Of a DNA stretch of 36,087 nucleotides, positions 1-27,931 are shown piece by piece. The translations under genes and the position numbers were made by a program. Every line of letters begins with the position of its first letter. Position 1 is the first letter of the stretch. This DNA is from Acidobacteriota bacterium (GTDB taxonomy: Bacteria; Acidobacteriota; Vicinamibacteria; Vicinamibacterales; CAVVIG01): contig JAHFUL010000002.1 of NCBI GenBank assembly GCA_023265155.1, positions 1 through 36,087 of the forward strand. The letters are read 5' to 3'. The notes below the pieces were generated by a model. That model did no database searches and was not told the origin of the DNA. It worked only from the letters and a program-made list of their open reading frames with translations.

Positions 1-240
1 GAATCGCAGGCCGAGCTTCAGCTCGGGCGTCAATCGGAACCGGGCAATCCGTCTCCACAGAGTCGTAGGCCCGAGCTCCAGCTCGGACGTCAATCGGAAC
101 CGGGCAATCCGTCTCCACAGAGTCGTAGGCCCGAGTTTCAGCTCGGACGTCAATCGGAACCGGGCAATCCGTCTCCACAGAATCGCAGGCCTGAGCTTCA
201 GCTCGGGCGTCAATCGGAGCCGGGCAATCCGGGCGCAGTG
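1..240. repeat. 60-bp tandem repeat, four copies visible and possibly continuing past the left edge; each carries a GCCCGAGCTTCAGCTCGGGC-type hairpin plus CGTCAATCGGAACCGGGCAATCCG
   Basis: Direct reading: units at 1-60, 61-120, 121-180 and 181-240 align at exact 60-bp period with few substitutions; the last unit diverges at its right end where it enters the M14 CDS. Confidence 0.95.
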
Positions 241-3002: not shown

Positions 3003-3021
3003 GGGAGAAGAATAGCAGATG

Positions 3022-3110
3022 GGTTCACAAGGTTCACAGGGTTCACAAGGTTCACGGGGTTCACAAGGTTCACAGGGTTCACAAGGTTCACGGGGTTCAA
3101 GGTTCACCGG
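3022..3110. repeat. 9-bp minisatellite GGTTCACNN with a 36-bp higher-order period
   Basis: Units read GGTTCAC+AA,AG,AA,GG,AA,AG,AA,GG and then degenerate copies. Confidence 0.95.
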
Positions 3111-3195
3111 GTGAAGGGGTGGTTGGGTGACGGAGAGGGGCGAGCAGACTCTGGAAAATACGAGAAGCCTGGGGGGCACTGGGCGAGCCACGCGG

Positions 3196-16672: not shown

Positions 16673-19477
16673 ATGAGATTGGCCGGGGTCCTTAGTACGG
16701 TGCTGGTGGTCGCCGCGGTCGTAGCCGCTCACGGTCAGCAGCCCCAGACACCAGTGTTCCGATCGGGCGTTGACGTGACGCCGATCGACGTGACCGTCGT
16801 GGACGGCGACGGTCGGCCGATTGACGATCTCAAGTCGGGCGATTTTCGCATCGCCATTGACGGCAAGGCGCGCCGCGTCGTCAGCGCCGAATGGGTGCCG
16901 CTCGCAAGGCCGCAAACGAGTGCCCCACCACCGCCGGCCCCCGCGGGCTATTCCAGCAACGAGAACACGACGAGCGGACGGCTCATTCTCATTGCGGTCG
17001 ATCAGCCGAACATCCGTTTCGATGGAATCATGGGCCTCCGGTCGGCGGTCAACGCCTTCATCGATCGGATACAGCCATCGGATCCCGTCGCCGCCGTGGG
17101 GCTTGGTCATGGCTCCGCCTCTACGCCGTTTACCACCGACCGTGATTCTGTGAAAAAGGCGCTCTCCCTCATGAGCGGTCAAAGCGAGCGCGGACGGGCC
17201 CTGAAAGCGATGCGGGAGATCGAGTACTGGCACGACCTCGCTATTTCCCCCGTCGAGGCGGTGAATATTTATCGTGGCCAGATGTCGACGCTCGACGTGG
17301 TATCGGTCCGTGAGTGCAAGATGTGGCCCGAGGCGTTCGCGGACGCCTCTCGCCGCAATTTGGTCACCACCGTCGCGTCCAGCCCTCTCCCGAATCCCGT
17401 CCCCTTGACGACCGATGCCGACCTCGGAACCTGCCGCGAAAGAATCAGTTCGGACGCTCAGGTGATCGGGTCGGCGGAAGTCGCCGACAGGGAGCAGACC
17501 CTGATGTCGCTCCGATCGCTTCTGAAAGCACTCACGGCCATCGACGCTCCCAAGACCCTCGTGCTCGTTTCCGAGGGCTTCAGCCTCACGGATGATCCGC
17601 AAAGCGTGATCGAGATCGGTTCACTATCGGCTGCGGCCCGAACGAGCATTTACGTTTTGAAGCTCGACGATCAACCCTTCGACGTATCCCAATCCGGCCC
17701 CACATTCTCGGGGGTTGGGGACCGCCAGGAGCTGGCGGCCGGGCTCGATGTGATCGCGTCGGCGTCGCGCGGGGCGTTGTTCAATGTGATGGGAAATGGA
17801 TCCGCGGCGATCGCGCGCCTCGAGCGGGAGCTTTCCGGCTACTACCTGGTCGGTGTCGAGTCTGTTCCGACCGACACGGACGGCAAGGCCCATCCCATCA
17901 ACGTGCAGGTCTCACGCCGTGGCGCCGTCGTTCGAGCGCGACGGGAGTTGGCGCACGCCGCGGCCCCGAGGGCCGGCACGCCCAGTGCGCTCGAAACGGT
18001 CGCCGCCGCGCTCGGCACGCCGCTCGTGCTTCCAAGCCTTCCGCTGCGCATCGCGACCTTCTCGCTGCGCGATCCAAAGGAGTCGAAGATCCAGGTTGTG
18101 ATTCACGCGGATGTCGGCACGAGCTACACGTCGGCTCAGGGCGTCACCCTCGGCTATGTCATCACCGACAGCAAGGGCGCCATCATCCTCAATCAGACGG
18201 GAACTGGCCGGCTGCCGCCCGCCATCAGTGGAGCGCCGTCGCCGTTAGTGTTCTCGGGGAGCGCCTCGCTCGATCCTGGGGAGTACATGTTGAAGTTTGC
18301 CATCGCGGAAGGCGATCGCGTGGGGTCAGTCGAACATCCTGTCCACGCGAACCTGATTGACGCCGGCGCGTTCAAGCTGAGCGAGCTGATGATTGGCGGA
18401 CCGCTGGACGCTCGGCAGCTGTTGATGCCGACCGTCGGATACGAGGTCCGGTTCGGAAGCGTCCAGGGATACATCGAGGCGTACGGTGCGACCGCCAGCA
18501 CGTTGTTGATGCGATATGAAGTCGCGCCAGGCCCTGACGCCCCGGCGCTGTTCAGCGCTGTCGTGCCTGGCCGCTCGGCGGGCGACGATCGCAATGTCTT
18601 TTCGTACGCGATGCCTGTCCGCGAACTGGCTCCCGGGCAGTACTACCTGCGCGCGGCGTTGTCCTCAGCCGACAGCCCGGGAGCGAGCGTCCGGACGATC
18701 GCCCGTGCGTTCAGGGTGGCGCCCCCACCGGCGACCACCGCCAGCGCTGCTGTTGCGCAGCGCGTCGTCGCGCTCGACGTTCGCGACGAGTTGCTGGCCA
18801 GGCGATTTCGCCGCGAAACCGTGTCGCGACGCGACACGCTCCCGCAATTGCGAGACACGCTGCCGGCGGGCGCGGCGCGCGCGTTCGATGAAGGAACCGC
18901 CGCTCTCGTCCTGGGCGACGATGCGAAGGCCGAACAGAGTTTCAGGAGCGCGCTGGAGACCGGACTGTCCGGCGCCGACAGCACGGCGGCGCTCGCCTAT
19001 CTGGGCGCGACGTACGCAGCGTCGGCCCGCGATCTCGAAGCGATCAGCATCTGGCAGGTTGCGCTCGTCGACGGTGCAGGCTTCCCGCAGATCTACGAGT
19101 GGCTCGGCGATGCGTTCATGCGGCTCCGCAATGTGGACGAGGCGCGCCTGATTCTCGAGGAAGCGATCGGCAAATGGCCGGCCGAGACCCGTTTCGCGAA
19201 ACCCCTTGCCATCGTCTACGCAAAGATCGGCCGGGGCCGCGAAGCCGTGGCGATGCTGGAGCGCTTCCTTGCGGACCGTCAGGACGATACCGAAGCGCTG
19301 TATCTCGGCGTCGAGTGGATGTCTCAGTTACACACCGCCGGCGCGGTTGTGAGCTCGAGGGGGGAAGACGCGAAGGCAGCGCGGAAGTGGGCCGATGCCT
19401 ACACGCTCGCGGGCGGCCCGCTGACCGACACCGTCAAGCAGTGGATGCTGTCGCTCGAAACGGCACCCGACAAGTAG
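16673..19477 (+). CDS. VWFA-like/TPR-like secreted protein, paralog 3, longer C-terminus
   Basis: Colinear with paralogs 1-2 (IAVDQPNIRFDG, KTLVLVSEGFSLT, SGYYLVGVES) with additional TPR-like C-terminal residues (KPLAIVYAKIGRGREAVAMLERFLADRQDDTEALYLG). Confidence 0.85.
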   Translation: MRLAGVLSTVLVVAAVVAAHGQQPQTPVFRSGVDVTPIDVTVVDGDGRPIDDLKSGDFRIAIDGKARRVVSAEWVPLARPQTSAPPPPAPAGYSSNENTTSGRLILIAVDQPNIRFDGIMGLRSAVNAFIDRIQPSDPVAAVGLGHGSASTPFTTDRDSVKKALSLMSGQSERGRALKAMREIEYWHDLAISPVEAVNIYRGQMSTLDVVSVRECKMWPEAFADASRRNLVTTVASSPLPNPVPLTTDADLGTCRERISSDAQVIGSAEVADREQTLMSLRSLLKALTAIDAPKTLVLVSEGFSLTDDPQSVIEIGSLSAAARTSIYVLKLDDQPFDVSQSGPTFSGVGDRQELAAGLDVIASASRGALFNVMGNGSAAIARLERELSGYYLVGVESVPTDTDGKAHPINVQVSRRGAVVRARRELAHAAAPRAGTPSALETVAAALGTPLVLPSLPLRIATFSLRDPKESKIQVVIHADVGTSYTSAQGVTLGYVITDSKGAIILNQTGTGRLPPAISGAPSPLVFSGSASLDPGEYMLKFAIAEGDRVGSVEHPVHANLIDAGAFKLSELMIGGPLDARQLLMPTVGYEVRFGSVQGYIEAYGATASTLLMRYEVAPGPDAPALFSAVVPGRSAGDDRNVFSYAMPVRELAPGQYYLRAALSSADSPGASVRTIARAFRVAPPPATTASAAVAQRVVALDVRDELLARRFRRETVSRRDTLPQLRDTLPAGAARAFDEGTAALVLGDDAKAEQSFRSALETGLSGADSTAALAYLGATYAASARDLEAISIWQVALVDGAGFPQIYEWLGDAFMRLRNVDEARLILEEAIGKWPAETRFAKPLAIVYAKIGRGREAVAMLERFLADRQDDTEALYLGVEWMSQLHTAGAVVSSRGEDAKAARKWADAYTLAGGPLTDTVKQWMLSLETAPDK

Positions 19478-19486
19478 GGCGGCCTT

Positions 19487-19533
19487 TCAGGCCCGTCAAC
19501 CTCGCGGGCCTGACTCGCGGACCTCAAAGGTCC
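19487..19533. terminator. Two hairpins between convergent genes: TCAGGCCCG-CGGGCCTGA (19487-19513) and GGACCTcaaAGGTCC (19519-19533)
   Basis: Perfect stems in the short gap between convergent stops; no U-tract, so terminator activity is inferred. Confidence 0.5.
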
Positions 19534-19563
19534 CGCGCTACGAATCGTCCTACAAGGCCCGCG

Positions 19564-21105
19564 CTACTCCTCTTTCGGCCGGCGCGGACGGCTCGTCCGG
19601 CGGACGGGGGCGGCAGTTGCTTTCTTCGTCACGCGGCGCGGCGCGGCGGCAGCCGCGGCCGATCGGGCCCGCGGCCGTCTTGCCTTGGCCCGGCCCAGCA
19701 ACTCCGCGGTGGTGTCCACGACCGTCGTGGGTTCCCTGTCTGCGATGTCGGTCATGTCGATGACGTTGCGGACGTCGATGACGTTCCCGACGTTGTCCGC
19801 ATCGGCATCCTCCAGGGCGGACTCCCTCGATGCCGGGAAGTCGGCTGCCGCCGCAGACATTGATTCAACGGGCTGCGTGTCCGTGTGCGCGGCCGCCTGG
19901 GCCCTCGGGACGCCAACGGCTCCGAGCGCCGCTCCCTGAAAGATCCGCATCCCCCTGCGTCGATCGCGCTCCACCTGCATGAGTCCCTCGCGCTGGCAGG
20001 CGCGCAGCAAATCCATCAGGCCGCCGAACCCGTAGCTGCGCTCGTCGAAGCTCGCCGCTCGCAGCAGCTGCTTGACGTTGCGGAGATACATCGGCCAGCG
20101 GGCGCTCGTGGCCGCGCGAAGAATGCCGCCAACGACAAGGACGCCTTCTGCATTGTCGCCAAGGACTTCCGCAGGCGGCCGCTGATCGCCTCCGACGGGA
20201 GGTCGCGGGTCGCCTCCGACCAGATACGGAGCAGGTGTCGGTCCTTGTGACGCGCTCGCCCCGCCATTGGTCGCGGCCCTGACGTCTGACGGTTGGCCTT
20301 CCTCAGCGGCGCGGATCTTCACGTCGGTTGATGGCGCATCGGTGTCTTCGAAGCCGCCGTTCAGCTCCACCATCACGCTTCGGCCGGAGTGCTTCAGCTG
20401 CACCAGGCCCGACTGAGCCAGCTTTTCCGCGAAGTCGAGGAATGAAGAGGCGCCGTAGTTGCGCTCGGAGAATGTCGAATCGAGCTGCAGCAGCGTGCTC
20501 TTGAGCAAGCCGGTCTGCGGCGTCACTTCGCGGTCCGCCAGGATCTTCAGGGCGCGGCGCACGAGCGGGAACGCCTGCGCGAGCGAGGCCGAGGCAGTCG
20601 AGGCGGCGGGACGGCCGCCTCGCGCCGCCGGCTTGCGGATCAGATTCTCGTACGCGATGAACTCGTGACAGTTGCGCTGCAGGATGGTGCTCGTGAAGGA
20701 TCGCCCGCCCACCACGAAGACCTTCTTGTCGTACTGCTTGAGCTTTTCGACGAGCGACAGGAAATCGCTGTCGCCCCCGACGATGACGTAGGCGTTGATG
20801 TGCGGGTGGGTGAACGCCATCTCGAGCGCGTCGAGCGCGAGGTTGATGTCGGCGCCGTTCTTGTCGCCGCCAGGCGTCAGATTGCGCTGGACGAGACGGA
20901 TGGCGTGCTGCGTGAGCGCCCGGCTGTATTCCCCGGCGCGCGTCCAGTCGGCATACGCGATCTTGGTCACCACCTCGCCGCGCTCCTTGAGCGCTTCGAG
21001 AATGATGCCGATGTCGAAATGTTCGCCGAGGGTGTTCTTGACGCCGATTTCGATGTTGTCGAAATCGATGAAGACTGCAATGTTGACGCGTTCTTGTTGA
21101 GGCAA
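19564..21105 (-). CDS. NYN-domain (LabA/DUF88, PIN-like) protein with two probable LOTUS/OST-HTH domains and a basic tail
   Basis: NIAVFIDFDNIEIG, NGADINLALDALEMAF, AYVIVGGDSDFLSLVEKLKQYDKKVFVVG; two winged-helix-like stretches (LLKSTLLQLDSTFSERNYGASSFLDFAEKLAQSGLVQL and YLRNVKQLLRAASFDERSYGFGGLMDLLRACQREGLMQV). Confidence 0.85.
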   Translation of the reverse strand: MPQQERVNIAVFIDFDNIEIGVKNTLGEHFDIGIILEALKERGEVVTKIAYADWTRAGEYSRALTQHAIRLVQRNLTPGGDKNGADINLALDALEMAFTHPHINAYVIVGGDSDFLSLVEKLKQYDKKVFVVGGRSFTSTILQRNCHEFIAYENLIRKPAARGGRPAASTASASLAQAFPLVRRALKILADREVTPQTGLLKSTLLQLDSTFSERNYGASSFLDFAEKLAQSGLVQLKHSGRSVMVELNGGFEDTDAPSTDVKIRAAEEGQPSDVRAATNGGASASQGPTPAPYLVGGDPRPPVGGDQRPPAEVLGDNAEGVLVVGGILRAATSARWPMYLRNVKQLLRAASFDERSYGFGGLMDLLRACQREGLMQVERDRRRGMRIFQGAALGAVGVPRAQAAAHTDTQPVESMSAAAADFPASRESALEDADADNVGNVIDVRNVIDMTDIADREPTTVVDTTAELLGRAKARRPRARSAAAAAAPRRVTKKATAAPVRRTSRPRRPKEE

Positions 21106-23734: not shown

Positions 23735-23849
23735 TCTCGGCTGTCGGCTCTCAGCTTTCAGGTGTCGGCTCTCAGCTTTCAGCACTGCCGTGAGCTGAAC
23801 GCTGACAGCTGACCGCTGAAAGCCGAACGCCGGACCTGAAAGGTCCGGC
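23735..23849. repeat. Composite repeat patch: GTCGGCTCTCAGCTTTCAG direct repeat (23743-23761, 23764-23782), GCTTTCAGC/GCTGAAAGC inverted segments, and hairpin GCCGGACCTgaaAGGTCCGGC (23829-23849)
   Basis: Direct reading of the parC-Nudix spacer. Confidence 0.85.
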
Positions 23850-23889
23850 CTACTTGGTGAACAGCACTCGCGAATGTAGAACATGCACG

Positions 23890-24849: not shown

Positions 24850-27765
24850 ATGACGTTGCTCGATCGGTTCCGCACGGCCCCTCGTCACAAGCATCCGGAC
24901 CCCGCGGTCCGCCTCGCCTTCGTGTCGGAGATCCCCTTGGACGACCGCGACAGCATCGCGGCCATCGCCTGCGAGGACGAGGATCCGCGCGTGCGTCGCG
25001 CGGCCGTGGCGAAGTTGATGGACCCCGCCGTCCTTGGTCGCATCGCCCGCGACGAACCGGATGAGGCGGTCCGCGGGCAGGCCGCAGCCATGCTTCGCGA
25101 TATCGCGCTGGAGTTGTTCGAGGGTCTCGGAGAGGCGGAGGGCCTCGACGCGGTGGACGCGCTCGGCGATCCCCGAGCGCTGACGCACATCGCCAAGAGC
25201 GCCGCGCGCGAGATCGTCGCATTGCGCGCGCTGTCGCGCACGACCGATCCTCACGCGTGGGGATCGATCGCGCGCCATAGCGTCTCCGAGGCGGCGCGCC
25301 GCGGCGCGCTGGAGTTGCTGCGCGAGCGCGGCGAGCAGGCCGAGATTCTGGCCGTCGCCATGAACAGCGAGTACAAGGACACGGCGCTCTCGTGCGTGGA
25401 GCTCGTGACGGACCCGGAGCAGCTCGAGCAGATCGCCGCGCGCGGCAAGAACAAGAGCGCGGCAAAGCGCGCGCGCGGCATCATCAGGGAGGCCGAGGAC
25501 CGCGCTGCTCTTGGCAGGACAGCCGAGGCCGGGAGAGCAGGCGAGGAAATGGTCGGTCGGACGGGGGCCCGGCATGGGGCGGGTGAGGAAGGCCGGGCGG
25601 GCGAGGCCGGTGGGACGGGTGAGGCAGGCGCGGCAGGCGGGACGAACACGAGTAGTATCCACCTTCAGCCGGACCCTGGCCCCGCGGCAATGGAAGAGGC
25701 GAACAGCCACGAACAGGCAGCAGCTGCCGAACGCGCGCGCGCCCAAGCCGCCGAACGTGAGGCCCAGGATGACATCGCGCGAGACGCCCAGGCCGCACAG
25801 CAAGTGCGGGAGGCTCAGGAGCGCGTGGCGCGCGAATCTGAGCGGCGCCATGCGCGGCTGTCCGAGCTGGCCGACCAGGCAGCGTCGGCGGCAGACCAAC
25901 CCGATCTCGCGTCCGCGCGCAGACTGTTCGGCATGTCCCGTCGCGAATGGGTCGATCTGTCCGCAGGCGACTCGGTTGATGCGATCGTGGCGGCCCGCTA
26001 CGCCGAGGCCGAAGCCAAACTGAGCGCCCGCGAGACGGAGATGCGAGAGGCCGACGCGCGCGCGCGCCGCGAAGCGCTTTCCCGGCTGCAGCATCTGCTC
26101 AGTCGCGTCGAGCCGCTTTCAGCCAGGCCCGATCTCTCCTTGAAGGCGGCGGAGCGCGCGCTCCGGGATGTGCGGACCGCGCTCGCGAACCTGCCGCCGC
26201 TCCCCGCCAAACAGGATGCCGAGGACGTGAGCCGGCGGTTGAAGGCGGCTCAGGCCGTGCTGACGCCGAAACTGCAGGAGCTGCGCGACGCGGACGACTG
26301 GCAGCGCTGGGCCAACGCCGGCGTGCAGGAGCAGCTCTGCGCGAAGATGGAAGCGCTGCACGCACTCGACGACCCCGAGGCAATCGCGCGCGACGTGCGC
26401 GACCTGCAGGATCAGTGGCGTAAGGCGGCGGACGTACCGCGCGCGCAGGCCGACGCCCTTTGGCGTCGCTTCAAAGCGGCCCACGATGCCGTCTGGCCAC
26501 GCTGCGAAGCGCACTTTGCCGCCGAGGCGCAGGCGCGCGCCGAGAACCTCGCGAAGAAGATCGCACTCTGCGAAAAAGCCGAGTCGCTCTCCGAGTCGAC
26601 CCGTTGGATTCAGACGGCGGAAGAGGTCAAGCGGCTCCAGGCCGAATGGAAAACCGTCGGCGCGGTGCCGCGCGGACGCGAAAAGGCGATCTGGGAGCGC
26701 TTCCGCGCTGCGTGCGATCGCTTCTTCACCCGTCGCCACGAGGATTTGGCCGAGCGGAAGATCGTGTGGGCCGAGAATCTCGCGAGGAAGACGGCGCTCT
26801 GCGAAAAAGCCGAGGCGCTCGCACAGTCGATCGAGTGGGATCAGGCCGCCGCCGCGCTCAAGAATCTTCAGACCGAGTGGAAAACCATCGGTCCGGTCAA
26901 GAAGACGCGATCCGAAGCGATCTGGCAGCGGTTCCGCACCGCCTGCGACGGGTTCTTCACCCGGTACGCGCAGCGTCACGATCTCGCGCGTGAGGATCGC
27001 GTTGCCGCCCGCGAGGCCATTTGCGCCGAGCTTGCCGCCTTCGCGCCGGCGCCAACACACCGTGCTTCGGCGCCCAGGGCCCCAGTCGTACCGGAAGTTG
27101 CAGATGGTCCTTCGGCGGACAATGCCCTCGAGGTCGCTCTGCCGCCAGAGGCGCTGGTTGATGATTCGCCAGACGTCGAGCCGCCCCCCGATCTGCTGGC
27201 GAAGGTGCGCGCGTTGCGCGCTCGATGGCAGCAGGAGATCGCAGCACGTGGCGTCGATCCCGATCGCGCGCGCGCGCTCGACGGACGTTTCGCGGCCGCC
27301 CACGCACGGGTGCTCGCCCGCTGGCCGGCGGTGTTCGCCGGAACCGATCTCGACCCGGACGCCAACCGCAAGCGAATGGAGGCGCTCGTGAGCCGCATGG
27401 AGGCGCTCGCGAAATCCGTGGCGGGGCCGACCGCCGAGAATGCTGACGCCCTGCTCTCGCCAACCGTCCGCCTCGCGGCGATGCTCAAGGAAGCGCTCGC
27501 GGCCAACACGATCGGCGGCAAAGTGGAGGACGACAGCCGCTGGCGCGCGGCCGCCGAGGAAGTGCGTCAGGCCCAGGCGAGCTGGTCGCGCCTCGGGCCG
27601 GTCGCGGACGACATCCGCCGGCCGCTCGTTGATCGGTTCCAGCGCGCGACCCGTCGGATCCTCGAGAGGGCGGGTGAAGCAGCGAAGTCAGGTGGCGCGG
27701 CCGCAGGTGGGGTTGCTCGGCCCGGTGGACAAAGTGGGGCCGGCAGGACAGGCGGCGGCAGGTAG
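24850..27765 (+). CDS. DUF349 repeat protein with HEAT-like N-terminus
   Basis: Repeated W-K-x-(I/V)-G-x-V-x(R/K)...(I)W-x-R-F-R-x-A-C-D-x-F-F motifs; a 231-bp period between GCCGAGAACCTCGCGAAGAAG (26539) and GCCGAGAATCTCGCGAGGAAG (26770). Confidence 0.8.
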   Translation: MTLLDRFRTAPRHKHPDPAVRLAFVSEIPLDDRDSIAAIACEDEDPRVRRAAVAKLMDPAVLGRIARDEPDEAVRGQAAAMLRDIALELFEGLGEAEGLDAVDALGDPRALTHIAKSAAREIVALRALSRTTDPHAWGSIARHSVSEAARRGALELLRERGEQAEILAVAMNSEYKDTALSCVELVTDPEQLEQIAARGKNKSAAKRARGIIREAEDRAALGRTAEAGRAGEEMVGRTGARHGAGEEGRAGEAGGTGEAGAAGGTNTSSIHLQPDPGPAAMEEANSHEQAAAAERARAQAAEREAQDDIARDAQAAQQVREAQERVARESERRHARLSELADQAASAADQPDLASARRLFGMSRREWVDLSAGDSVDAIVAARYAEAEAKLSARETEMREADARARREALSRLQHLLSRVEPLSARPDLSLKAAERALRDVRTALANLPPLPAKQDAEDVSRRLKAAQAVLTPKLQELRDADDWQRWANAGVQEQLCAKMEALHALDDPEAIARDVRDLQDQWRKAADVPRAQADALWRRFKAAHDAVWPRCEAHFAAEAQARAENLAKKIALCEKAESLSESTRWIQTAEEVKRLQAEWKTVGAVPRGREKAIWERFRAACDRFFTRRHEDLAERKIVWAENLARKTALCEKAEALAQSIEWDQAAAALKNLQTEWKTIGPVKKTRSEAIWQRFRTACDGFFTRYAQRHDLAREDRVAAREAICAELAAFAPAPTHRASAPRAPVVPEVADGPSADNALEVALPPEALVDDSPDVEPPPDLLAKVRALRARWQQEIAARGVDPDRARALDGRFAAAHARVLARWPAVFAGTDLDPDANRKRMEALVSRMEALAKSVAGPTAENADALLSPTVRLAAMLKEALAANTIGGKVEDDSRWRAAAEEVRQAQASWSRLGPVADDIRRPLVDRFQRATRRILERAGEAAKSGGAAAGGVARPGGQSGAGRTGGGR

Positions 27766-27783
27766 GCGCGCAGTACTCGTAGT

Positions 27784-27895
27784 GCGGACCTTCAGGTCCG
27801 CCGTGTTAGTTAGGCAGGACTGAAAGTCCTGCGCCAGGCAGGACTGAAAGTCCTGCGCTACGAGTACCACTGAGCGCCCGAGCTGAAGCTCGGGC
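27784..27895. repeat. Cluster of four hairpins between convergent genes (27784-27801, 27814-27832, 27838-27856, 27876-27895)
   Basis: GCGGACCttcaGGTCCGC; GCAGGACTgaaAGTCCTGC twice at 24-bp spacing; GCCCGAGCtgaaGCTCGGGC followed by CTACG. Confidence 0.92.
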
Positions 27896-27931
27896 CTACG
27901 ACGGACGCTCTGCTGAAGGTCGGGCCGGCGG

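Follow-up and report, generated by a model that had tools for sequence, protein, structure and literature searches.

In Escherichia coli, BIMEs consist of alternating inverted REPs (Y and Z) organized as tandem units, and the partners within them are unlike each other. REPs marked by a GTAG tag form a superfamily with stems of 5–13 bp and 2–3 nt loops in many of its families, complementary stem variants, inverted dimers and clusters that are mostly intergenic; in the survey passages drawn on here, heterodimers are preferred in most families and are described in Enterobacteriaceae, and the only role given to Acidobacteria is that of carrying transposases with flanking TIRs (Di Nocera et al. 2013, PMC3733652). 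In REPIN/RAYT systems, inverted REPs are joined by a short spacer with their tags outermost, several classes share one genome and the RAYT gene lies next to copies of these repeats (Bertels and Rainey 2011, PMC3116915). The transposases of group 3 or subclass 2.5 (TnpAREP) occur with short REPs, mostly in Xanthomonads and Pseudomonads (PMC6006769, PMC8266576), and assays of group-3 TnpAREP found that GTAG is needed for cleavage, that one loop base is essential, that a stem mismatch is harmful and that replacing the stem sequence has a modest effect (PMC8266576). Earlier work has described genomes with multiple classes, stem variants that differ by compensatory changes, REPs that lack their RAYT (PMC3686654) and heterodimers; what is new in the present case is the host phylum for the short-REP type, the particular classes, and a near-absolute heterodimer rule with a natural exception.

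The window analyzed here is the whole 36,087-nt stretch at positions 1–36,087 of contig JAHFUL010000002.1 (assembly GCA_023265155.1) from a soil Acidobacteriota bacterium of the order Vicinamibacterales. A preliminary description, made from the sequence alone, had noticed a family of hairpins with a constant apex and tail but exchanged, pairing stems, and the hairpins that it named are present in the window sequence where it placed them. Well-preserved copies follow a shared plan of an unpaired GTAG, 0–2 nt, a perfect stem of 8–9 bp and a short loop (TC, TTC, TTT or TTA), in which the top two stem pairs are C-G and T-A and the sum of tag-to-stem distance and stem length is approximately constant (GTAG+1+8 or GTAG+0+9). 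The constant element, an unpaired GTAG before the hairpin on one strand, is a CTAC behind the hairpin on the other, and the "TGAA centre" and "CTACG tail" reported at the outset correspond to the apex and the GTAG tag on the opposite strand; GTAG lies on the plus strand at 27779–27782 for the hairpin at 27784, and on the minus strand for those at 27838, 27876 and 23829. The window contains the following elements:

27779..27801, plus strand: REP, GTAG t GCGGACCT tc AGGTCCGC; left half of a heads-out pair.
27814..27832, minus strand: internal REP, GCAGGACT/AGTCCTGC, whose tag has decayed; a tandem duplicate (24 bp) of the REP at 27838..27861.
27838..27861, minus strand: REP, read on the minus strand as GTAG c GCAGGACT ttc AGTCCTGC; right half of the pair.
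27779..27861, no strand assigned: heads-outward heterodimer, a REPIN-like unit with one REP tandem-duplicated inside (24 bp).
27876..27899, minus strand: REP of another class, GTAG GCCCGAGCT tc AGCTCGGGC.
23829..23853, minus strand: REP, GTAG GCCGGACCT ttc AGGTCCGGC, flanked by NUDIX and gyrase A/ParC genes.
19517..19541, minus strand: REP with an imperfect stem, GC GGACCT caa AGGTCC c GC g CTAC, as read from the sequence.
19474..19498, plus strand: decayed REP, GTAGGGCGGCCTTTCAGGCCCG..., heads-out partner of the REP at 19517..19541.
4..231, plus strand: 60-bp tandem array of one REP (GTAG/GCAG, GCCCGAGCT/AGCTCGG), 3.8 copies, at the 3' end of an M14 peptidase gene.

The central unit (27779..27861) sits between a DUF349 gene (ending at 27765, plus strand) and a convergent FKBP gene (from 27932, minus strand), and its internal hairpin at 27814 has lost a clean tag, with ccag in place of the expected ctac. 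The hairpin at 19519 carries a one-base bulge below GGACCT/AGGTCC, and of the four tags in the array at 1–240, two read GTAG and two GCAG. A TPR-like gene ending at 19477 takes its TAG stop codon from the GTAG tag (19474–19477) of the decayed REP, and this decayed pair adjoins a gene for a NYN nuclease with a partial OST-HTH/LOTUS match (19564–21105). Repeats of other kinds also occur in the window: low-complexity AGCTGA/GCTGAA/TCAGCTTTCAGG repeats at 23742–23830 directly adjoin the REP at 23829 (a REP unit at locus L211 of a relative, G037, has similar, GTCATGGCTCA-like stretches next to it), a 9/18-bp tandem repeat, (GGTTCACAA)n, lies at 3021–3112 near the 5' end of the M14 peptidase frame, and a 231-bp imperfect tandem repeat at 26539–26963 falls within the DUF349 gene, which encodes several DUF349 domains.

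The hairpins exceed chance expectation in both the window and its genome. The window holds 13 perfect hairpins of at least 8 bp against 5.8 +/- 2.1 in simulated sequence, and the window's assembly (2.53 Mb, 66.5% complete) holds 298 GTAG-N7-CTTNAG sites against 11 for the reversed pattern, the corresponding counts for the 3-nt-loop form being 59 and 24. In 426 kb there are 55 perfect GTAG hairpins with this apex, whereas six control tetranucleotides, mostly commoner than GTAG, give none. The exchange of stems preserves pairing: among 37 distinct listed sites, picked by tag and apex only with the 3' arm left free, standard pairs fill 90.9% of pair cells against 68.6% when the 3' letters are shuffled, six of the eight stem pairs change on both sides, and the covariation score is 0.537 against 0.174 for shuffled arms (0 of 500 shuffles reach it) and at most 0.119 for a slid partner. 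Because REP sites are related and hence non-independent, the shuffle counts should not be read as probabilities; the slid control, in which this relatedness is preserved, agrees, and a further covariation analysis had the same outcome. Both the excess over controls and the covariation thus bear out the family first noticed in the window. The copies are mostly extragenic (1 of 49 placeable copies lies within a called gene in the 426-kb sample, using our own simple gene caller), and about 300 tag-and-apex sites in 2.53 Mb fall in the range of tens to hundreds of copies that characterizes GTAG REPs.

At least 15 stem sequences have only the tag and apex in common, and at least four stem classes coexist in the window's genome. 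The commonest, GCCCGA[C/G/A]CT, has 145 perfect copies of its C and G forms; GCAG[GA/AC/GC/GG]CT has 57 perfect copies of the GA form (GCAGGACT), and further classes are GTCCG[G/C]CT and GCG[GC/AC/GG]CCT-like. The commonest class is patchily distributed: a search of 26 further genomes of the family recovered no copy, it is rare in seven other genomes of the order, and it is commoner only in the genome G161 (34 copies). Two inverted REPs with outermost tags recur as a unit in the window's genome, as in REPINs and BIMEs, and the spacers of its sampled pairs are mostly 8–36 nt, one of 75 nt.

On the tag, apex, pairing, covariation, copy number, mostly intergenic position and inverted pairing observed here, these hairpins are, with high confidence, GTAG-tagged REP elements, many of which form inverted pairs (REPIN/BIME units). 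These short DNA repeats are non-autonomous, and in single-stranded form they are probably acted on by a RAYT/TnpAREP HuH transposase of group 3 (subclass 2.5-like). The view that they matched no named family was mistaken, since the GTAG REP superfamily has been described (PMC3733652), with the same unpaired GTAG, stem, loop, complementary subfamilies, inverted dimers and clusters, and hairpins of the same design flank RAYTs in relatives. The Rfam search at gathering score gave no family match in the window. Our REPs differ from that superfamily, so far as the passages cited cover it, in that short GTAG REPs flank Acidobacteriota RAYTs, in the presence of at least four classes in one genome and in heterodimers that are almost without exception. 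They share with REPIN/RAYT systems the inverted REPs with short spacer and outermost tags, the several classes per genome and, in relatives, a RAYT gene adjoined by such repeats; unlike REPIN/RAYT, the partners carry different stems and the RAYT is unseen in the window's draft genome. E. coli REPs, by comparison, are longer and have the bulge that their TnpAREP needs, whereas the stems here are perfect.

Searches of the window's 66.5%-complete genome with a Pfam model and a family-derived alignment detected neither a RAYT nor any other Y1 transposase, but 18 of the 27 genomes of the family have a Y1 transposase. Two tested MPDHVHLL-type proteins of the family pass the NCBIfam REP_Tyr_transpos cut-off (NF047646), and a profile of nine such proteins has TnpArep (4er8) as its best PDB match. 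The relatives' enzymes carry the motifs DH[VLA]H, WQ and YI[LV][EA]NP (with one YV variant), and resemble those of group 3 or subclass 2.5 in HuH type (DH[x]H), WQ motif, YI..NP and length of about 160 aa, just as the hairpins resemble subclass 2.5 REPs in being short and perfect, with GTAG 0–2 nt off and shorter stems compensating. The tyrosine motif, however, is YI[VI]ANP in subclass 2.5 (alongside DH[LF]H and WQ), which leaves the subclass uncertain, and the hosts here are Acidobacteriota and many other deep phyla. The RAYT of one family member (G009) is identical to that in a gp6 record, which places the host in Acidobacteriota subdivision 6 (Vicinamibacteria).

Hairpins of the GCAGACCT class lie on both sides of a frame-broken RAYT (L034, in G018), and GTCCGGCT/GTCCGCCT hairpins flank five others (L035, L037, L041, L155 and L161; genomes G002, G008, G015 and G016); both flanking classes occur in the window's genome. 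Other RAYTs in relatives adjoin hairpins of the same plan with other stems, and none of the RAYT loci examined is flanked by the commonest class, GCCCGA[C/G]CT. At L034 (contig C861), where the RAYT is split over two frames between its GCAGACCT REPs, tandem REPs fall within open frames and are read as peptide repeats (RADLQVCVRPGR, RPEGLHYVRAA). Across 80 RAYT loci from public genomes (Acidobacteriota, Chloroflexota, Planctomycetota, Zixiibacteriota and others), GTAG hairpins are nearby at 54, and their density is 1.57/kb within 600 bp of the RAYT against 0.116/kb beyond 1.2 kb, a 13-fold difference. Stem classes follow the enzymes on a maximum-likelihood tree of 52 RAYTs, though not as single clades, with 20 changes against 36 when shuffled (0 of 200 shuffles are as low). 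This association of design and enzyme, together with clustering of stem classes on the RAYT tree and presence or absence at three loci, is observed directly. At those loci G037 has a REPIN unit between conserved genes and its congener G038 has none; the empty sites in G038 also differ by intergenic drift, with no exact junction or target readable, and the comparison supports movement or loss of the unit.

We infer that a RAYT moves these REPs, that single-stranded DNA is its substrate and that the window's genome has, or had, such an enzyme. A single-stranded GTAG tag with a perfect hairpin and a TC/TTC apex would be the substrate; the enzyme would read the tag and apex and require a paired stem, and the stems would consequently drift through compensatory changes, each lineage amplifying its own stem classes. 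The biochemistry of group-3 TnpAREP explains this combination of constant tag and apex with exchangeable stems (PMC8266576), and what is known of REPs and group-3 TnpAREP/RAYT agrees well with the preliminary suggestion that structure is under selection or that the spread is stem-agnostic. What weighs against the mechanism is that no RAYT was found in the window's incomplete genome, in the 97%-complete genome G001, which also has such REPs, or next to hairpins of the commonest class.

A variant of the transposase reading is that the population is a relic, in which the RAYT is already lost from the lineage and the REPs only decay and duplicate in tandem. We consider this possible, though we doubt it. 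It draws on the lack of any RAYT found in the window's genome or in G001 (97% complete, with no RAYT match), on the decayed copies at 19474 and 27814, on the tandem arrays at 1–240 and elsewhere, and on the precedent of pseudomonads with abundant REPs and a missing cognate RAYT, which was ascribed to RAYT loss (PMC3686654); yet the assembly is without a third of the genome, and the 145 GCCCGA[C/G]CT and 57 GCAGGACT copies, perfect in both arms and tag, are so many that they argue for recent spread. G001 itself has 92 perfect GCAGGACT REPs whose dimers are always GA+GT, and these are either orphan REPs or the RAYT was lost at an assembly break.

Two further explanations dispense with the transposase altogether. 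The hairpins might be RNA elements, either transcription terminators or stabilizers of mRNA 3' ends, with their structure kept for that purpose. REPs elsewhere do stabilize mRNA 3' ends, many of the hairpins lie downstream of genes (in the window, between the convergent genes at 27765/27932 and at 19477/19564) and there is a weak terminator-like match at 27784. However, an intrinsic terminator calls for a T run directly behind the hairpin, which most copies lack, having a CG-rich sequence (CGTCG, CTTCG or GCG) instead; convergent gaps are no richer in REPs than expected (6 convergent, 38 codirectional and 4 divergent contexts in the 426-kb sample); and an RNA role leaves the unpaired GTAG, the inverted dimers and the RAYT association unexplained, so that we regard it as improbable. 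Protein-binding sites can likewise be short, abundant and dispersed palindromes, but a view of the hairpins as uptake signals, protein-binding sites or chance palindromes without any transposase link seems to us barely credible: uptake signals have one fixed sequence, whereas here there are at least 15 stems sharing only tag and apex, the hairpins are strongly enriched beside RAYT genes, and control tags yield no matches.

The most distinctive property of these REPs is how they pair. Neighbors with the same stem account for 0 of 48 heads-out pairs and 2 of 33 tails-out pairs, against 59 of 74 tandem pairs; with each stem combination counted once, inverted pairs are 2 same and 43 different, against 20 and 10 for tandem pairs (Fisher p = 6e-9). 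The inverted pairs of the GCCCGA class in the window's genome are all heterodimers (10 of 10). When, to avoid bias, heads-out GCAG-class pairs were sought in 162 genomes without fixing either mid-stem pair, all 62 of the pairs listed from 12 genomes were heterodimers, the main combinations being CC+GC, CC+GG, GA+GT, AC+GA, AC+GC and GC+GG. Units are copied whole, so pairs within a genome are not independent, and the independent count amounts to a handful of combinations and lineages. Counted from the apex, it is pairs 3 and 4 that differ between the stems, mostly by G-C to C-G flips; GGCGGGTCC/GCCGGGTCC, which had seemed to be homodimers, match only in a 7-bp core, and their full stems differ. 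Of the genomes sampled from the order, G161 alone has homodimers (8 of 12 among the GCAG-class units listed; 50 in all; for example, C1:20479-20554). Its RAYT (L182) carries MPNHLHV, not MPDHVHL. As a pattern, the heterodimer rule is solid.

The rule might arise from a requirement of the transposase for short hairpins, from removal of long palindromes (a suggestion made in PMC3733652) or from founder effects. By folding of the cross-phylum and GCAG-class sets, different stems weaken the long inter-REP hairpin by 9–13 kcal/mol. The further idea that they make two short hairpins the stabler form is only partly true, holding in 14 of 25 cross-phylum heads-out units, folded with the apex pair opened, but in only 1 of 66 GCAG-class units of the order. 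We tentatively hypothesize, as a speculation we would not favor over its alternatives, that this RAYT clade requires different stems in the inverted unit, by way of paired mid-stem substitutions, and that a unit with identical stems would collapse into one long hairpin, unusable by the transposase or destroyed by the cell; on this view, selection for an anti-palindrome code, instead of drift, would account for the stem exchange.

The literature available under open license yielded no dedicated report on REPs in Acidobacteria. The present analysis firmly identifies a set of hairpins that had no name and widens the range of short-stem REP/RAYT systems to include Acidobacteriota, with several stem classes in one genome; predicted proteins of this phylum may contain odd repeats contributed by such REPs. 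With 12 genomes, six main combinations and one exceptional genome, the heterodimer rule makes the earlier remark on palindrome clearance (PMC3733652) directly testable and, if different stems are indeed required, G161, with mostly homodimers, would be the natural exception to that requirement.
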